A model generated the notes under the pieces. The model ran no database searches, had not been told where the DNA came from, and worked only from the letters and a program-made list of their open reading frames with translations. From NCBI GenBank assembly GCA_021205095.1, contig JAJPYE010000050.1:1-61945 (forward strand): DNA of 61,945 nt, given 5' to 3'. Position 1 is the first letter of the stretch. Each line of letters begins with the position of its first letter. Positions 30,412 through 38,845 of this stretch are shown in pieces. The stretch comes from Oscillospiraceae bacterium (GTDB lineage Bacteria; Bacillota; Clostridia; Oscillospirales; Oscillospiraceae). The translations under genes were made by a program, and so were the position numbers.

Positions 30412-31020
30412 TTATTTCCTTGCCGGCTTGTCAAACGCGGGGTTCACTGCATAGATATTTCGTTTATCCATTTGAGATGTTGCGATCTCCATCGCTTCGC
30501 CGAAACGCTGGAAGTGGACGACCTCACGCTCCCGCAGGAATCGGATAACGTCTATCACATCCGGGTCGTCGGCCATACGAAGGATGTTGTCATAGGTTGC
30601 TCTGGCCTTCTGTTCAGCGCCCATGTCCTCGGTCAAATCAGCGATCACATCACCCTTTACTGCAAAGCTGGCTGCATTAAAGGGCCAGCCAGCGGCGGCC
30701 TGGGCGTATACGCCGGCGGTGTGATCCACAAAGTATTCCTGGAACCCGGCCTCCTTCACCTGCTCTATGGTCATGTTTCGCGTAAGCTGATGAACGATGG
30801 CGCCGATCATCTCAAGATGCCCAAGCTCCTCCACGCCGATGTCTGTAAGAGTAGCCTTTAGCGCCGGGTACGGCATGGAATACCGCTGGCTCAGATAACG
30901 CAGGGACGCGCTCAATTCGCCGTCCGGGCCGCCGTATTGCGTAATGATAAATTTCGCCATGGCGGGGTCGGGATTTTTGATGCGGACAGGATATTGCAGC
31001 TTTTTCTCATACACAAACAT
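30412..31020 (-). CDS. cotJC: spore coat protein CotJC (manganese-catalase family)
   Basis: The product has 202 residues. It is a four-helix ferritin-like protein of the manganese catalase family. Likely metal ligands lie in GVEELGHLEMIG and in REREVVHFQRFGEA, with AEQKARATYDNILR between. In Bacillus it is part of the inner spore coat and may protect against peroxide. I use the ATG at 31020 (MFVYEKKLQYP), which overlaps the upstream stop by one base; an ATG at 31026 is two codons longer. Confidence 0.92.
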   Translation of the reverse strand: MFVYEKKLQYPVRIKNPDPAMAKFIITQYGGPDGELSASLRYLSQRYSMPYPALKATLTDIGVEELGHLEMIGAIVHQLTRNMTIEQVKEAGFQEYFVDHTAGVYAQAAAGWPFNAASFAVKGDVIADLTEDMGAEQKARATYDNILRMADDPDVIDVIRFLREREVVHFQRFGEAMEIATSQMDKRNIYAVNPAFDKPARK

Positions 31021-31466
31021 CAGCATTTACCTGCCTTTCCGCCGTTGTCCCAGGGCCACGGATCTTCCGTCCAAACCCAGGAATTGAAGTTTGCCGTGTC
31101 CCGGCGTGTAACGGGGCCATACAGCTCTACATATCGTTTACGGCCTTTCTCTGCCAAGGCGACAAAGCTCTTCCAGGTCTTGAATGCCTCGGCGTCGTCT
31201 GGATGGGTGTCCAAATACAGGGCAAGCTCCTGGAGCACGAAGTCCAGGGCCATCAGCTCCGCCAGCGGGGTGTTTTCCACCGCGCCGGTGGCCACATAGT
31301 CCATGAAGGGCAGATCCAGGCCGGGAAACAGCGTTCCCTTTGCCAGCGCCTCCGCGCTGTCATAGGCGGGTTGACTGCTCTGCTGCACAGGTACCATAGG
31401 CACTGCCAGTGAAACGCATGAAGGGAGCGGCCCTTCTCTATAGGTGCAGGAATTATTATTTGCCAA
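31020..31466 (-). CDS. cotJAB: CotJA-CotJB fusion spore coat protein
   Basis: The product has 148 residues and joins two proteins that are usually separate. Residues about 13-56 match CotJA (LAVPMVPVQ, ALAKGTLFPGLDLPF). Residues about 66-141 match CotJB (LQELALYLDTHPDDAEAF, then WVWTEDPWPWD). The reading frame is continuous, without a start or ribosome site for a separate CotJB except internal Met codons (for example Met55 and Met72). I start at TTG (31466-31464) because AAAGGGGGA lies just upstream; ATG codons at 31499 and 31490 are in frame but inside the hairpin. Confidence 0.85.
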   Translation of the reverse strand: MANNNSCTYREGPLPSCVSLAVPMVPVQQSSQPAYDSAEALAKGTLFPGLDLPFMDYVATGAVENTPLAELMALDFVLQELALYLDTHPDDAEAFKTWKSFVALAEKGRKRYVELYGPVTRRDTANFNSWVWTEDPWPWDNGGKAGKC

Positions 31467-31469
31467 ATG

Positions 31470-31509
31470 AAATCCCCCTTTGCAAGCCATTCTATGCAAA
31501 GGGGGATTT
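31470..31509 (-). promoter_or_regulatory. hairpin holding the cotJAB ribosome site, with sigma-E-like -10 in the loop
   Basis: A perfect 15-bp stem (31470-31484 and 31495-31509) with a 10-base loop lies between pfp and cotJAB. On the minus strand the second arm contains AAAGGGGGA, the cotJAB ribosome site. The loop plus two stem bases read CATAGAAT on the minus strand (31489-31496), 7 of 8 with the sigma-E -10 consensus. The matching -35 is poor. Transcripts started there would lack the first arm. Confidence 0.5.
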
Positions 31510-31522
31510 TGTTGTGTGTGGA

Positions 31523-32761
31523 TTACGCCTGTATCTTTTTCAGCTTTGCATATCTGGGCAGTGACTGTTCAACAGGCCGCACCGGCTCGCCTTGAATCAG
31601 AGGAAGAGCGTAGTCGATGAACTCCTGGGTGACAAAGTTACCCTCCGCATTGATCCACTCCAGAGGAACCTTCTTTTCTGCGTTGGCGACGGCAGACAGA
31701 GGGAGCAGTATGGTCTTGCAGACGTACTGGCCGCTGTCGCGGCCCCGCTCAAAGGCTACCATCTTCCCGGTTTCCCCGGCCACGGCAGCCTCCACCGCTG
31801 CGCGGCCCGCCAGCTCTGCCTCCTCCACATCGGTCTTGGAGGCCAGATGGGCGCCGCAGCGCTGCAAAAGACTCAGCTCGATAGGCCGCACCTTGGCCCC
31901 AGTGCGCTCCTTCACCATTTCCGCGAGGCGTGCGGCCAGACCCCCAAGCTGGGCATGGCCAAAGCCGTCCGTGCTGCTGGTCTTTGCCTGGGAGACAAAG
32001 GTGCCGTCTGCGAAATGCAGCCCCTCCGACACAGCGGCCAGGCAGCAGCCTTTTTCCTTGTAAATCCGCTCCACATCGGCCAGAAACGCCTCCTGGTCGA
32101 AGTCCCGCTCCGGCAGATAGACCAGATCCGGCCCTGCGCCGAAATAGGTTCCCAGAGCGGCGGAACCGGCCAGCCACCCAGCGTGGCGGCCCATAATCTC
32201 GATGATTGTCACCTGCCCGGTGGGGTAGACCCGGCTGTCCCGCGACACCTCCATGCAGCTTGTGGCGATATATTTCGCCGCAGAGCCAAACCCAGGGCAG
32301 TGGTCGGTGCCATAAAGATCGTTGTCGATGGTCTTGGGAATCCCCATCACCCGGCAGTCCCAGCCGGAACGGGCCATATAGCGGCTGATCTTGTCGCAGG
32401 TGTCCATGGAATCGTTGCCGCCGTTATAGAAGAAATAACGGACATTGTGTTTTTGGAATACCTCCAAAATACGTTTATAGTCGGTGTCGTCCACATCTGG
32501 ATCGGCCAGCTTATACCGGCAGGATCCAAGCTCCGAGGCGGGGGTGTTTTTCAGATAGGCCAGCTCCGCCGGATCCTCCAGCCCCATGTCATAGAGCTTG
32601 TCTCCCAGAACGCCGGTTATTCCGTGATCTGCGCCGAGAACCTGGGTGATCTCCTCTGCAGCAAGGGCCGCAGTGATAGCGCCGTAGGCGCTGGCGTTGA
32701 TGACCGATGTCGGCCCGCCGGACTGCCCGATGATACAGGCTCCCACAAGTTTTTCAGCCAT
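31523..32761 (-). CDS. pfp: PPi-dependent 6-phosphofructokinase
   Basis: The product has 412 residues. It interconverts fructose 6-phosphate and fructose 1,6-bisphosphate using pyrophosphate. The GGNDS motif has Asp where ATP enzymes have Gly, and PKTIDND has Lys at the second discriminating position; both mark the PPi-type. IMGRHAGWLA is the usual sugar-phosphate part. It is divergent from fba, the next glycolytic step. Another PFKA-family assignment is possible only for the physiological direction. Confidence 0.92.
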   Translation of the reverse strand: MAEKLVGACIIGQSGGPTSVINASAYGAITAALAAEEITQVLGADHGITGVLGDKLYDMGLEDPAELAYLKNTPASELGSCRYKLADPDVDDTDYKRILEVFQKHNVRYFFYNGGNDSMDTCDKISRYMARSGWDCRVMGIPKTIDNDLYGTDHCPGFGSAAKYIATSCMEVSRDSRVYPTGQVTIIEIMGRHAGWLAGSAALGTYFGAGPDLVYLPERDFDQEAFLADVERIYKEKGCCLAAVSEGLHFADGTFVSQAKTSSTDGFGHAQLGGLAARLAEMVKERTGAKVRPIELSLLQRCGAHLASKTDVEEAELAGRAAVEAAVAGETGKMVAFERGRDSGQYVCKTILLPLSAVANAEKKVPLEWINAEGNFVTQEFIDYALPLIQGEPVRPVEQSLPRYAKLKKIQA

Positions 32762-32855: not shown

Positions 32856-33791
32856 ATGCCAATCGTAACAACAACCGAAATGTTCGAAAAAGCCTACAAG
32901 GGCGGGTACGCCATCGGGGCTTTTAATGTCAACAACATGGAGATCGTTCAGGGCATCACGGAGGCGGCTGCCGAGGTCAATTCTCCTCTGATCCTCCAGG
33001 TTTCTGCCGGGGCGCGCAAATATGCAAAGCACGTCTACCTCACCAAGCTGGTGGAGGCCGCTGTGGCGGATACGGGCTTGCCCATTGCCCTGCATCTGGA
33101 TCACGGTGCGGACTTTGACATCTGCAAGAGCTGTGTGGACGGGGGCTTTACCTCCGTTATGATCGACGGCTCCTCCCTCAGTTTTGAGGACAACATTGCC
33201 GTCACCCGGCAGGTGGTGGAGTATGCCCATGACCACGGCGTCGTGGTAGAGGGCGAGCTGGGCCGCCTGGAAGGGGTGGAGGACGATGTAGTTGTTTCTG
33301 CTGAGGATTCCAGCTACACCCGCCCGGAGGATGTGCAGGAGTTTGTAGAGCGCACCGGGGTGGATTCCCTGGCTATTGCCATCGGCACCAGCCACGGGGC
33401 CTATAAATTCAAGCCCGGCACAAAGCCTCAGCTCCGCTTTGATATTTTGGAGGAAGTCGCCCAGCGTCTTCCCGGTTTCCCTATTGTACTCCACGGCGCT
33501 TCCAGTGTTATCCCCAAGTATGTGGACATCATCAACGCCAACGGCGGCAAGCTGGTGGACGCCATCGGCGTGCCGGAGGATATGCTCCGCAAGGCTGCAT
33601 CCATGGCCGTTTGCAAGATTAACATCGACTCCGACCTGCGCCTGGCCATGACCGCCGGCATCCGCCAGCATTTCAATGAGCATCCTGAGCATTTCGACCC
33701 CCGTCAGTACCTGACCGTTGGCCGGGACTATATCCGCGAGCTTGTGAAGGACAAAATTGTAAACGTGCTGGGGAGCGACGGGAAGGCGTAA
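32856..33791 (+). CDS. fba: class II fructose-1,6-bisphosphate aldolase
   Basis: The product has 311 residues. It splits fructose 1,6-bisphosphate using zinc. Ligand and active-site segments are IALHLDHGADF (catalytic Asp and first His), VEGELGRLEG, AIGTSHGAYKF and VLHGASSV (His). KINIDSDLR is the phosphate-binding part. AAGGAG precedes the ATG. Only one base separates it from the P-type ATPase gene, whose start is probably translationally coupled. Confidence 0.95.
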   Translation: MPIVTTTEMFEKAYKGGYAIGAFNVNNMEIVQGITEAAAEVNSPLILQVSAGARKYAKHVYLTKLVEAAVADTGLPIALHLDHGADFDICKSCVDGGFTSVMIDGSSLSFEDNIAVTRQVVEYAHDHGVVVEGELGRLEGVEDDVVVSAEDSSYTRPEDVQEFVERTGVDSLAIAIGTSHGAYKFKPGTKPQLRFDILEEVAQRLPGFPIVLHGASSVIPKYVDIINANGGKLVDAIGVPEDMLRKAASMAVCKINIDSDLRLAMTAGIRQHFNEHPEHFDPRQYLTVGRDYIRELVKDKIVNVLGSDGKA

Positions 33792-33792
33792 T

Positions 33793-35499
33793 ATGGGGTT
33801 TTTGCGAGAGATAAAACAAGCCGTTTCCGGCCACGGTCACGACTGCACCTGCGATAGCTGCATGGAGGAGCATCACCACGACCATCACGGCTTTGACACC
33901 GTGATGGTGTGGCGGCTCGTTGCTGCCGCCGTCCTGTTTATAGGCGGGGAGGTGGCGGAGGGGACGCTGCCTACTGTGTCTCTTATCCTGTTTATCGCGG
34001 CGATACTTTGCGCCGGATATGACCTTTTTATCAGCGCTGTCGCAAACATCTTTCAGCGGAAGCTGTTTGATGAGACGTTGCTGATGAGCATTGTCGCCGT
34101 AGCTGCCTGTATTATTGGCGAAGCCAGCGAGGGAGCCTCGGTGGTGATTCTGTTCCAGCTTGGCGAGCTGTTTCAGGGCTATGCTGTGGCAAAGGTTCGG
34201 CACAATATAGAGGGGCTGATGGAAAATCGCTCCCCGGAGGCCAGCGCGGTTCTGGCTGACGTCCGCTCGGACAAGGGGCAGAAGGGAAGAACAGAGGAGT
34301 TCATCACCCATTTTTCCCGTGTATATACGCCTGTGATTCTGGGCGTGGCGCTTATCGTTGCCATCGTATCTCCGCTGGCGCTGGACGTCACCGTGGCGGA
34401 AGGGGTTCACCGTGCGCTGGTAATGCTGGTGATTGCCTGTCCCTGCGCCATCGTTATCTCTGTGCCGCTGACCTATTTTGCAGGTATTGGCGGAGCTACG
34501 CGGCAGGGAATCCTGTTTAAAAGCACCTGTGCCATGGATGATGTGGCCCGCACCCAGGCGGTAGTATTTGACAAATCCGGCGCTTTAGAAGGCGAAGGGC
34601 TGCGTGTGGTGTCCGTCAAGAGCGATAAAATGGATGCAGGTGTGCTTCTTCGCATTGCTTCCCATGCCTGCGCCTATTCCAGCAGCATTTATGCAGAAGG
34701 AATCAAAGCCTCCTATCAGGGCGTAATCTACATCGAGCTGATTCAAAGCTTTCAGCAGCAGGAGGAGGGCTTTGGCATCACCGTAGAGGTGGACGGCGTC
34801 CGCATTGTGCTTGGCCTGCTGGATTTTATGCGCGACCATGGGGTGGATCCAGAGACGGATGCCCTGCCGGAGGAAGATTGCGTGTATTTGGCCGTTGATG
34901 GTCAATATGCAGGACGTATTCTGCTGGGCAGCGTTGCGAAAGCCGATGTTTGCGGAGCGGTGACGGTTCTTTCCTGGAGTAAAGGCAGAGAAATCGCCAT
35001 GATAACAGACGACAGCCGCACTGCGTCGGAAAAATTTGCCCGACAGGTCGGTATAGACGAGTTTTACCCAGATTGCAATTCGTCGGATAAGGTGGCGCTG
35101 GTCAAGGAAATACAAAACCGTCAGGTCAAAAAAGGCACGCTGATGTTTGTTGGCGATGCCGATACGGATGGAGACTGCATCCGTCAGGCGGATGTGGGCG
35201 TGTCCCTGAATGGTGCGGATTCCGATGCTGCGATTCAGGCGGCGGACGTAGTCATCATGGACAACTCGCCTTCCAAAGTGGTGACGGCGATGGAGGCTGC
35301 TCGCCACACCCGTTCTATCGTCTGGCAGAACATTGTTTTTGCACTGGCCTTTAAGGTCGTTATCCTTGTGCTGGATATGTTTGGCTTCTGCCCCTTGTGG
35401 CTGGCTGTGTTCGCGGACGTGGGCGTGGCGCTTCTTGCAGTGCTCAACTCTCTGCGTGCCTTCCTGATAAAGGATACCGTGCTGCCGGAGAGCAAATAA
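33793..35499 (+). CDS. degenerate P1B-type ATPase lacking the actuator domain
   Basis: The product has 568 residues in an uninterrupted frame. It is clearly built like a heavy-metal P-type ATPase: an N-terminal His/Cys cluster (CTCDSCMEEHHHDHH, 18-32), membrane helices, the metal-site CPC (216-218), and DVG (542-544) in the last helix pair. The actuator domain with TGE is absent: helix 4 ends near 140 and FSRVYTP resumes at 174. DKTGT is DKSGA (260-264), TGD is TDD (405-407), GDGxND is GDADTDGD (454-461) and the HP motif of the nucleotide domain is missing. Ordinary transport is unlikely; a metal sensor or scaffold is a possible role. Confidence 0.85.
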   Translation: MGFLREIKQAVSGHGHDCTCDSCMEEHHHDHHGFDTVMVWRLVAAAVLFIGGEVAEGTLPTVSLILFIAAILCAGYDLFISAVANIFQRKLFDETLLMSIVAVAACIIGEASEGASVVILFQLGELFQGYAVAKVRHNIEGLMENRSPEASAVLADVRSDKGQKGRTEEFITHFSRVYTPVILGVALIVAIVSPLALDVTVAEGVHRALVMLVIACPCAIVISVPLTYFAGIGGATRQGILFKSTCAMDDVARTQAVVFDKSGALEGEGLRVVSVKSDKMDAGVLLRIASHACAYSSSIYAEGIKASYQGVIYIELIQSFQQQEEGFGITVEVDGVRIVLGLLDFMRDHGVDPETDALPEEDCVYLAVDGQYAGRILLGSVAKADVCGAVTVLSWSKGREIAMITDDSRTASEKFARQVGIDEFYPDCNSSDKVALVKEIQNRQVKKGTLMFVGDADTDGDCIRQADVGVSLNGADSDAAIQAADVVIMDNSPSKVVTAMEAARHTRSIVWQNIVFALAFKVVILVLDMFGFCPLWLAVFADVGVALLAVLNSLRAFLIKDTVLPESK

Positions 35500-36071: not shown

Positions 36072-38141
36072 CTATGCGTTGGCCGTGGCATCCAAGGGGA
36101 TGTTCAGCGTTTCGGGAAGCTTTGCGGAATAGGGGAAGGTTATAAGAGCCTTGAACAGGTCTCCGTCCAGTATCAATTCAAGATTACCGCCCATCAGCTT
36201 GGTCAGACTCAGGGCAATGGACAGGCCAAGGCCGGAACCCTCGCTGCTGCGGGAGCTGTCCCCCCGGACAAATCGCTCCATCAGCTCCTCCGCGGGTATG
36301 TCCAGCGGGGCCTTTGATATATTCTTGATGGCAATCTCCATCTGATCCTGACGGACGGACAGATCAAAATAAGCCCGCGTTCCCGGCTGGGCATATTTCA
36401 GGATGTTGGTGATCAAATTATCCAGCACCCGCCCCAACAGACGGCCATCCGCCAGAAGAAGGACGCTGTCCTGCGGCATATGAATGACCGGCTCGATCTC
36501 GGCAGCTTGCAGGCGCTCGCTGTATTCTCCCACAAACTGCTCCAGCAGCTCCGTTACGTCCAGCTCCTCCCAATTCACCACAATAGCGCCGCTGACGGCC
36601 TTGGACGCCTCCACCACGTCCTCCGTCAGTTTTTTCAGCTTGGCGTTCTGGCGTTCCAGCACGGTGATGTATTCCCGGCGCTGCTCCACTGGCAGGCTCT
36701 CGTTTTTTAACAGGTCGATATAGTTGATGATGGAGGTCAGCGGCGTTTTCAGGTCGTGGCTGACGTTGGTAATCAGCTCGGTTTTCATCCGCTCGCTTCG
36801 CATACGCTCCTCAACGGCCAGAGCCATACCGTCCCCGATGCTGTTCAGATTCTGCCCCAAGGATTTCCACGTCAGGTGGAGCCTGCGTGTGTCCACCTTA
36901 TAGGTGAGATTTCCCTCTGCAAGAGCGGCGGATGCCGAGCGAACGGCTTTTTCCTCGCTGCACCAGCGGATGAATCCAACCAGCAGCACCACATCTGTTG
37001 CCAGCAACAGCCAAGCCAGGTAAAAAAGTATTAAGCCTCCGTAAGTATAAAACTCAACCATCGTAAAGAAGCACTGCACTCCTATAAAGACGACAATCAG
37101 CACACGCAGGATGATTCGCATTGGCAGCTTTCCAGCCAGGCGGCGCAGGAGAAGACTTTTCACAAATATCTTAGTGGCAATTTGTGTAGCCAGAATATAG
37201 CCTGCCAGGCTGACAGCCATCACCGAAAACATTGCCCTGAAAAGAGAGAAGGGCACATACAGGCTTACTGTCTTGTAGACCAGGTCAAATGTCAGATCCC
37301 ACGCACCGTTCCACAGCAGGAGGGAGCACAGATACAACCCTACCGCCAGCACTTCAAAGGGAAGGCAAAAGAGAGTTAATGGTTTCTTTCCGTTTTTTCC
37401 GGCCAGGATGGCCCCCGCCAGCGCGAACGCCAGCAGCAGAAGAGCCATGGCTCCGCCGCCCACGCACAGGGCCAAATAGTAGTCCCGGCCCGCGAATAAG
37501 CGGGTGAAGGTGAGATATTCCCCATAGCAGCCGTCATATGGCTCCACGGGAAGATTGACATAGCCGGAGATGATATAGTTGGATTCATTGTATAGATAAT
37601 ATACGGATGCGGTTTCGCCATCCTTACTATATGTTTCCGTCTCTTCCTCATAGGCTTCGGTATCGCTTGCACTGGCGTTTTCCGCTGGCAGCGGCGCTGG
37701 CGTGGCCGCCGTGACGGTATAGTCTTCGTCTGACACGCTGACCCCGGCATCCACGCTTTCGGTCAGATCAATAATCACCGTCTCGTCATAGCCAGTGCCG
37801 TAGTCCATCACATAAACGGAGTTTTCCGTGGTGGTGTCCGCCATGACCTTGCCGGTATCGATTTGTGTGATGGTATAGGAAAAGGCCTCCCCGCCGTATT
37901 CCCCCAGGGTGGTGTCCGTGGGGTCGCCCAGCCATATCAGATTTTGCGCCACATAGAACAGGCAGTCCTGGATATAATCCTGGCAGAGAGCGCTGTCCTC
38001 GAAGCCGTCTGTTCCGCCATACCAGCCGTCCTGCAAGCCATAGTTATACAGAAAGCCGCAGACAAAGCTGACTGCAACACACAGGCAGAACAGTATCAGC
38101 GCCAGCGTTCGCGCCCATCGTTTTTGGCAAAAAGATTTCAT
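36072..38141 (-). CDS. sensor histidine kinase with large ectodomain and polytopic membrane part
   Basis: The product has 689 residues. After TM1 (about 12-30) an extracytoplasmic segment of nearly 190 residues follows, which is acidic and includes a Glu/Thr-rich run. Then come about five helices (220-390), a HisKA domain with NVSHDLKTPLTS (His462) and HATPase_c with NLITNILKYA and GSGLGLSIA. The N-box Asn is kept. I start at ATG 38141, which has GAGGGGG upstream; ATG 38159 overlaps the regulator stop (ATGA) but lacks a ribosome site. Its ligand is unknown. Confidence 0.88.
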   Translation of the reverse strand: MKSFCQKRWARTLALILFCLCVAVSFVCGFLYNYGLQDGWYGGTDGFEDSALCQDYIQDCLFYVAQNLIWLGDPTDTTLGEYGGEAFSYTITQIDTGKVMADTTTENSVYVMDYGTGYDETVIIDLTESVDAGVSVSDEDYTVTAATPAPLPAENASASDTEAYEEETETYSKDGETASVYYLYNESNYIISGYVNLPVEPYDGCYGEYLTFTRLFAGRDYYLALCVGGGAMALLLLAFALAGAILAGKNGKKPLTLFCLPFEVLAVGLYLCSLLLWNGAWDLTFDLVYKTVSLYVPFSLFRAMFSVMAVSLAGYILATQIATKIFVKSLLLRRLAGKLPMRIILRVLIVVFIGVQCFFTMVEFYTYGGLILFYLAWLLLATDVVLLVGFIRWCSEEKAVRSASAALAEGNLTYKVDTRRLHLTWKSLGQNLNSIGDGMALAVEERMRSERMKTELITNVSHDLKTPLTSIINYIDLLKNESLPVEQRREYITVLERQNAKLKKLTEDVVEASKAVSGAIVVNWEELDVTELLEQFVGEYSERLQAAEIEPVIHMPQDSVLLLADGRLLGRVLDNLITNILKYAQPGTRAYFDLSVRQDQMEIAIKNISKAPLDIPAEELMERFVRGDSSRSSEGSGLGLSIALSLTKLMGGNLELILDGDLFKALITFPYSAKLPETLNIPLDATANA

Positions 38142-38155
38142 CCCATTTCCCCCTC

Positions 38156-38845
38156 TCATTCAAATTTATAGCCCTTGCCCCACACGACCTTCAAGTGCCG
38201 GGGGTTGGCGGGGTCGATTTCCACCTTTTCCCGCAGATGGCGGATATGTACGGCCACGGTGTTTTCCGTGCCCATGGGGGTATCCCGCCACACGCTGCGA
38301 TATATCTCCCGGCTGGAAAACACCTTGCCGGGGTGCTGCATGAAGAATTTCAGGATGTCGTATTCCTTGGGCGTGACCGGGACGGGTTCTCCGTCACAGG
38401 TGACGCTTTTGCTGTCATCGTCCAGCTCGATACCGCCCATACTAAGGACAGAGGGATTGGCGGTCGCCATGCCGCCAAGGGTTGCATATCGCCGCAGCAG
38501 CGCCTTGACGCGGGCCAGTACCTCCTTGGCGTTAAAGGGTTTTGTGATATAGTCGTCTGCACCCAGCTCCAGCCCTGCGATTTTGTCGTCGTCCTCTCCT
38601 TTAGCGGTCAGGAATATGACCGGAACATTATTTTGTTTCTCTCTTAGAAGCGTCAGCACCTCTGTGCCGTCCAGAACAGGTATCATGATGTCCAGCAGAA
38701 TAAGATGCACGGTCTCCGCCCCCAGCAGCTTCAGTGCCTCCCATCCGTTGCCCGCTGAAAGCACCCGATAGCCGCCGCCGGTGAGATAAATCTCAAGCGC
38801 ATGACGGATGTCATCGTCATCATCGCAAATCAGAACGGTATACAT
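38156..38845 (-). CDS. OmpR/PhoB-family response regulator
   Basis: The product has 229 residues. The receiver has the acidic pocket DDDDD, the phosphoacceptor in LLDIMIP and the Lys in ITKPF. The C-terminal winged helix contains LTPKEYDIL-type sequence (VTPKEYDILKFFM) and ends VWGKGYKFE. It is transcribed with the kinase. AAAGGAGTGAG-type ribosome site precedes the ATG. The look is VanR-like but the targets cannot be named. Confidence 0.92.
   Translation of the reverse strand: MYTVLICDDDDDIRHALEIYLTGGGYRVLSAGNGWEALKLLGAETVHLILLDIMIPVLDGTEVLTLLREKQNNVPVIFLTAKGEDDDKIAGLELGADDYITKPFNAKEVLARVKALLRRYATLGGMATANPSVLSMGGIELDDDSKSVTCDGEPVPVTPKEYDILKFFMQHPGKVFSSREIYRSVWRDTPMGTENTVAVHIRHLREKVEIDPANPRHLKVVWGKGYKFE

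Follow-up and report, generated by a model that had tools for sequence, protein, structure and literature searches.

A P-type ATPase pseudo-pump without an actuator domain directly behind fba in Oscillospiraceae

What does a P-type ATPase gene still encode once the parts that drive its pumping are gone? The question is raised by a 61,945 nucleotide stretch of Oscillospiraceae DNA, here called the window, which corresponds to contig C37 in a draft genome of 2.34 Mb that is 97% complete. Positions 33793–35499 of its plus strand gave a stop-free translation of 568 amino acids. From the letters alone, the original prediction had read this as a P-type ATPase lacking its actuator domain and most ATPase motifs, with its membrane metal site retained, and had proposed a non-transport role such as metal sensing, buffering or scaffolding. 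The intact 568-codon frame, the N-terminal His/Cys residues, CPC, DKSGA, TDD, GDADTDGD, DVG and the absence of HP were all found in the sequence, as was a start codon one base past the fba stop. The features are as follows.

31523..32761, minus strand: phosphofructokinase-like gene (name presumed), divergent from fba and a conserved neighbour
32856..33791, plus strand: fba, class II fructose-bisphosphate aldolase (PF01116; Pfam match), directly upstream
33780..33786, plus strand: GGGAAGG, Shine-Dalgarno-like, within the last fba codons and 6 bases before the ATG (read from the sequence)
33793..35499, plus strand: fba-linked pseudo-P1B ATPase of 568 aa without an actuator domain (translation, profile matches, alignment)
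33832..33888, plus strand: N-terminal His/Cys cluster, residues 14–32 (36-protein alignment)
34213..34296, plus strand: short linker replacing the actuator domain, residues 141–168 (alignment)
34438..34446, plus strand: CPC membrane metal motif, residues 216–218 (kept in 36/36)
34570..34584, plus strand: degenerate phosphorylation motif DKSGA, residues 260–264 (sequence and alignment)
35005..35013, plus strand: TDD instead of TGD, residues 405–407 (sequence and alignment)
35152..35175, plus strand: GDADTDGD instead of GDGxND, residues 454–461 (sequence and alignment)
35353..35355, plus strand: TM5 lysine K521 (kept in 30/30 representative fba-linked pseudo-pumps of 11 genera)
35416..35424, plus strand: DVG of the last helix, residues 542–544 (alignment)

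The N-terminal His/Cys stretch of the window protein is HGHDCTCDSCMEEHHHDHH. Alignment with intact relatives revealed the actuator domain, together with its TGE, to be wholly absent, core helices two and three being joined by a linker of about 25 residues instead; the actuator columns held 0 residues in the window protein versus 84 in 8/8 intact copies, in agreement with the predicted deletion. The actuator profile PF00122 did score above its cut-off, but the match covered only model positions 70–180 of 181. The alignment column of the HP motif was occupied by SI. The phospho-acceptor Asp (D260) is still there despite the altered DKSGA motif, and an alignment of 36 proteins (34 from the window's genus, g1, and two copies of the sister genus g29) showed it to be kept in 35/36. 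The claim that most ATPase motifs are lost was therefore right, and the stronger wording that all energy-coupling parts are lost went too far.

The top NCBIfam model for the window protein was TIGR01525 (E 4.4e-85), with a score of 286.6 bits that falls below the cut-off of 346.25; its TIGR01512 score (258.9 bits) was likewise below the cut-off of 313.5. An intact protein, L041, passed both models (528.2 and 491.9 bits), and the general model TIGR01494 was passed by the window protein itself (94.2 vs 62.3). The best solved relative was ZntA (4umv, E 6.7e-75). By these matches the window protein is a homologue of the P1B-2 (ZntA-like) ATPases. It shares with ZntA (PDB 4umv and 4umw) the CPC in TM4, the Lys in TM5, the DxG in TM6 and a HAD-type P domain. 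In contrast to ZntA, it has neither the actuator domain with TGE nor HP, its DKTGT, TGD and GDGxND are altered, both specific NCBIfam cut-offs are missed and its gene lies directly behind fba. An intact ZntA of 613 aa, with all tabulated motifs, is encoded elsewhere in the same genome (contig C66).

An orthologue free of in-frame stops and sharing the deletion was present in 35/35 genomes of the genus. The 34 whole copies were 548–571 aa long, and the copy in G031 was split in two pieces at contig ends. In all 35 genomes fba, or the part of it held by the contig, lay directly upstream, with a gap of 1 base in 6/35 (the window's subclade) and of 3–9 bases in 29/35. Relatives in uncultured Oscillospiraceae MAGs (8 loci, 74–96% identity) were within genomes of this genus set and came from at least two MAG series. 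As the shortened copy is found in 35/35 genomes of the genus, chance and assembly error are excluded.

The pairwise NG86 dN/dS of the pseudo-pump was 0.045–0.095 in 15/15 pairs of the window's subclade, values that are approximate, because synonymous sites were near saturation in several pairs, and that lie far below one, as expected of a selected gene. A one-strain pseudogene or a sequencing error was ruled out by the 35/35 genomes, the similar lengths, the lack of stops and these ratios. Pooled over five genomes of the subclade, without G002, which is close to G001 and less complete, dN/dS was 0.058 (0.045–0.072 in a bootstrap of 100 codon resamples), below that of intact ZntA; on the same four genomes the pseudo-pump had a value of 0.054, whereas intact ZntA reached 0.137 and fba 0.013. 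The larger subclade, subclade 2, had a median of 0.20 (276 pairs, 24 genomes), and in 55 matched pairs from it the pseudo-pump stood at 0.175 vs 0.300 for ZntA. The ZntA copies numbered 20; two, L118 (partial) and L119 (more distant), were left out of the dN/dS calculation, and the G001 copy was partial (461 codons). For the linker, residues 141–166, the median regional dN divided by whole-gene dS was 0.057 and 0.076 in the two subclades. Constraint was weaker among G006, G007 and G008 (L052, L051 and L050), which gave 0.31–0.58 among themselves and had lost more motifs, with both D260 and D542 gone from the G006 copy. The pseudo-pump is under purifying selection in the window's genus, to which all of these selection figures apply, and we are highly confident in its identity as a selected pseudo-pump. 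In G006–G008 the faster pseudo-pump adjoins an fba that is nevertheless 91–92% identical to that of the window, and CPC is kept.

In the 36-protein alignment C216, P217, C218 and K521 were kept in 36/36 and D542 in 35/36, which upheld the predicted retention of the metal ligands for g1 and g29. The N-terminal cluster was nearly as constant (H14 in 36/36; H16, C18, C20 and C23 each in 35/36), with one g29 copy, L055, being without it. The catalytic positions varied more widely: D455 was kept in 32/36, T405 was Thr in 25/36 and Ser in 4/36, K433 was Lys in 27/36 and D459 was Asp in 12/36. Position 262 was Ser in 5/36 and Thr in 28/36, making DKSGA a minority spelling. Metal ligands are thus better kept than coupling residues in these two genera. 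Both g29 copies come from G062, which has two separate fba and pseudo-pump pairs (L054 and L055) with fba before each; the contamination of this assembly is 6%, so two organisms are possible.

This pattern bears on what the protein may do. Class II aldolases are zinc-dependent. The CPC/Lys/Asp site and the N-terminal Cys/His residues could store zinc at the membrane and hand it to newly made aldolase. Three observations fit such a buffer: few residues are better kept in the genus than the CPC, the Lys and the Cys/His cluster; a class II aldolase (PF01116) is encoded next door; and an ArsR-type regulator gene lies between fba and zntA in three intact relatives. It cannot be the shared function, as the first CPC Cys is lost in all 20 sequences from nine other genera, where the genes are nevertheless still in place; the loss of the cluster in L055 also speaks against it, and we regard it as unlikely, if the most serious of the alternatives to be weighed here. 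A membrane part without its actuator domain might instead pass zinc or another cation passively down its gradient, as a channel or carrier. The coupling parts are absent and the full membrane ligand set is present in 35/36, as such a pathway would need. An equivalent Lys–Asp salt bridge stops zinc reflux in ZntA, as described in a passage of PMC6305203, and the Lys of this closing pair is invariant in 30/30 representatives; other lineages, moreover, do not have the first Cys ligand, and a passive pathway appears improbable.

The HAD-type P domain could also have become a phosphatase or a phosphate sensor of glycolytic intermediates. The window protein has a PF00702 match above cut-off, D260 and D455 are mostly kept in the genus, and the gene stands beside fba and the phosphofructokinase-like gene. 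The looser conservation of T405, K433 and D459 and the loss of the Asp nucleophile from 14/20 sequences of the nine other genera make this quite improbable, slightly more so than a passive pathway. Retention of D260, CPC, Lys and Asp might even suggest that the protein still pumps, with a separate protein providing the actuator domain. The changes extend to HP and GDGxND, however, and no clear stand-alone actuator protein was found among the six PF00122 matches of the 97%-complete draft genome: five were in frames of 578–961 codons (one of them belonging to the window), while the sixth, in a frame of 194 codons where a contig ends, is ambiguous. A stand-alone actuator acting in trans was rejected for want of a clear candidate among these matches, and continued pumping is hardly credible. 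Two partial PF00122 matches at contig ends (G000:C18:89703-90164 and G000:C23:3-161) could be one split P-type ATPase gene.

A survey starting from fba was carried out in 60 genera of the same family, with profile and tblastn searches of downstream stretches of at least 1.4 kb; 91 loci were counted, some being two cuts of one genome, and 5 shorter loci were left out. A P-type ATPase homologue was found behind fba in 14/60 genera. In three of the 14 (represented by G088, G215 and G066) the ATPase was intact and an ArsR-like frame intervened, with an ArsR Pfam match (PF01022) at G088, the only locus of the three tested; in genus g25 the order fba-arsR-zntA was present in 1/5 genomes examined. 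In the other 11 (g1, g29, g4, g95, g102, g5, g42, g80, g71, g52 and g21) a defective ATPase lay directly behind fba. The genera had been chosen by fba or ATPase similarity, often with one genome each, so 11/60 is not a rate. No ATPase-like frame was found in the surveyed stretch behind fba in 46/60 genera, where ATPases further downstream would be missed, and the partner is thus dispensable. In the nine genera beyond g1 and g29 the gaps to fba were 12–83 bases, 2/20 of the chosen starts overlapping fba, and in g4 the pseudo-pump was present in 9/11 genomes and behind fba in 9/9.

Motifs were read by alignment column in 30 representative sequences (8 of g1, 2 of g29 and 20 of the other nine genera). 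The actuator domain was absent, with 0–9 residues left, in 16/30, and intact motifs were rare (DKTGT 0/30, GDGxND 0/30, TGE 1/30, HP 2/30). Outside g1 and g29 the phospho-acceptor Asp and the first CPC Cys were lost in the numbers given above, and the second Cys in 12/20. Across the 11 genera the TM5 Lys (K521), one of three residues invariant in 30/30, was joined by W536 in 29/30 and the TM6 Asp (D542) in 27/30. With the Lys/Asp pair kept but CPC cysteines lost across genera, the shared membrane feature is nearer to a closing pair than to metal ligands. The motif table rules out metal-site retention as the common explanation; the common denominator of the fba-linked defective ATPases is their place directly behind fba. 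The proposed non-transport role therefore survives in part: the loss of coupling and the open, selected frame support it, and metal sensing or buffering, as the first CPC Cys is lost in nine genera, can at most be the version of the window's genus and its sister.

A slowly decaying, functionless relic carried behind fba would fit the patchy distribution and the relaxed constraint in G006–G008. Against this stand the pooled dN/dS, under that of intact ZntA, the lack of stops in the genus copies and the open frames of 528–721 codons in 20/20 sequences of the nine other genera, long branches notwithstanding; we consider a relic very improbable. In wider samples, 25/394 genomes of the order matched the window protein at E 1e-85 and at least 233/391 genomes of the class at E 1e-100. 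The matches listed, the window's own gene aside, began at query residues 124–157, as expected with an actuator domain; scoring covered the top few candidates of each genome and motif inspection some of the matches, so rare exceptions could have escaped.

Of the intact relatives found, that of G088 was the closest, with 46% identity over residues 150–560. The defective genes and G088 belonged to a single group of ZntA homologues specific to the family (SH-aLRT 99 at a fork of 29 rows) in a quick tree from a short search, built from 42 of 63 rows after 21 near-duplicate or outgroup rows had been dropped. A single clade of all fba-linked pseudo-pumps was compatible with the data (AU p 0.9), and its likelihood exceeded that of the free quick tree, which needs 3 changes for their origin; FastTree support for one clade was 0.69. 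One to three origins are possible, with long branches as a caveat. A single loss of the actuator domain was rejected (AU p 2.6e-5, 15 rows), and the tree required 4 changes; the domain has, as judged from this tree, been lost about four times. The simplest history would run from fba-arsR-zntA through loss of arsR and capture of the ATPase by fba to loss of pumping and repeated trimming.

The type of fba itself varies within the genus. A 322-aa type, present in 25/35 genomes (L013–L036 and L057; several partial), was approximately 67–73% identical to that of the window by two aligners. Its 18 distinct near-full sequences grouped with fba of g65, g67, g26 and g20 (support 0.91), and the deeper forks parting them from the window's type had support of 0.996 and 0.997. 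At two 322-aa fba loci that were inspected, the neighbours keep their place with 71–90% identity; we take these to be phosphofructokinase-, CotJC- and response-regulator-like genes at both and a ligA-like gene at one. It thus appears from trees and gene order that one fba was swapped for another at this locus and the pseudo-pump stayed where it was, which would favour a bond to the position, through joint expression, over a finely fitted protein contact.

In the window, the GGGAAGG inside the last codons of fba suggests translational coupling of the pseudo-pump to fba. Beside the glycolytic locus, on the minus strand, two small overlapping genes (30412–31499) presumably encode CotJC- and CotJB-like spore-coat proteins. 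On the other side, also on the minus strand, are genes at 36072–38845 that we take to encode a histidine kinase and a response regulator. In G005 (L059), L061 and L063 the response regulator directly follows the pseudo-pump and is encoded on the plus strand, indicating a local inversion in the window's genome. The L059 kinase reads as two overlapping frames.

Taken together, we tentatively favour, at rather less than even confidence, a retired ZntA-type zinc/cadmium pump that no longer pumps and now serves, in the membrane, as a partner of the class II aldolase encoded just upstream. It is homologous to P1B-2 ATPases, and three intact relatives, including the closest found (G088), stand as fba-arsR-zntA. 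In the window's lineage, where no regulator gene lies between and the ATPase frame begins 1–9 bases after fba, the actuator domain and several catalytic motifs have gone, so that the E1/E2 cycle cannot run as known. Translation of the pseudo-pump would be coupled to that of fba, the helices with the Lys–Asp pair may form a sealed anchor in the membrane, and what is left of the P/N-like domain would face the cytosol, where it would hold or tune aldolase, or the zinc of that enzyme, at the membrane. Zinc may be bound in g1 and g29 by the CPC/Lys/Asp site together with the N-terminal Cys/His cluster, which L055 lacks, a capacity probably lost in other lineages. That coupled translation, an anchor of this kind and zinc binding in g1 and g29 all hold jointly is possible but doubtful.

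Survival of the fba linkage through the replacement of fba, with the pseudo-pump keeping its place, supports the partner model. The same replacement, with the neighbour left as it was, makes a finely fitted interface less likely, unless that interface lies on a conserved surface. Also counted against the partner model are its dispensability in 46/60 genera, the weaker constraint in G006–G008, the median of 0.20 in subclade 2 and the retention of D260 in 35/36. For the family as a whole, we consider it an evenly balanced proposition that a pump gene became trapped behind fba, shed its regulator along with the parts needed for pumping, was differently trimmed in different lineages and became a membrane partner of a glycolytic enzyme, at first binding zinc and later without the full ligands.

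Pseudoenzymes, such as the iRhoms, have lost catalysis and act in regulation. The fba-linked pseudo-pump belongs among them, being homologous to a family of active enzymes, short of catalytic residues and, in the window's genus, under purifying selection; its extent is unusual for a P-type ATPase. Like iRhoms, it is conserved, selected and, to judge from its residues, probably free of catalysis. MJ0968 is a soluble P-type-like HAD protein without a membrane domain. It resembles the window protein in having a P-type-like HAD domain outside a working pump, whereas the membrane domain that it does not have is exactly what the window protein keeps. The loci of G088, G215 and G066, from the same family, have fba upstream as in the window; they differ in having all tabulated motifs intact and the ArsR-type gene between, with 508–612 bases separating the ATPase from fba. 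The place next to fba is conserved across genera, 11/60 having a defective copy there, as would be expected of a functional partner of aldolase. Among the matches listed from the open-access PMC literature there was no P-type ATPase pseudo-pump and no fba-linked ATPase, and a search of PMC6094482 for aldolase and fba terms found none.

P-type ATPases are a textbook case of tightly coupled domains. If the reading given here is true, about four losses of the actuator domain, in genes that have stayed open and in place and that are, in the window's genus, under purifying selection, would amount to a natural dissection of the non-pumping membrane part. Some lineages have the CPC cysteines and others do not, and comparing the two offers a direct test of a metal role. 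For the Oscillospiraceae, the locus would, if the same reading holds, offer a lead on how a central enzyme of glycolysis may associate with the membrane or be controlled by metal.
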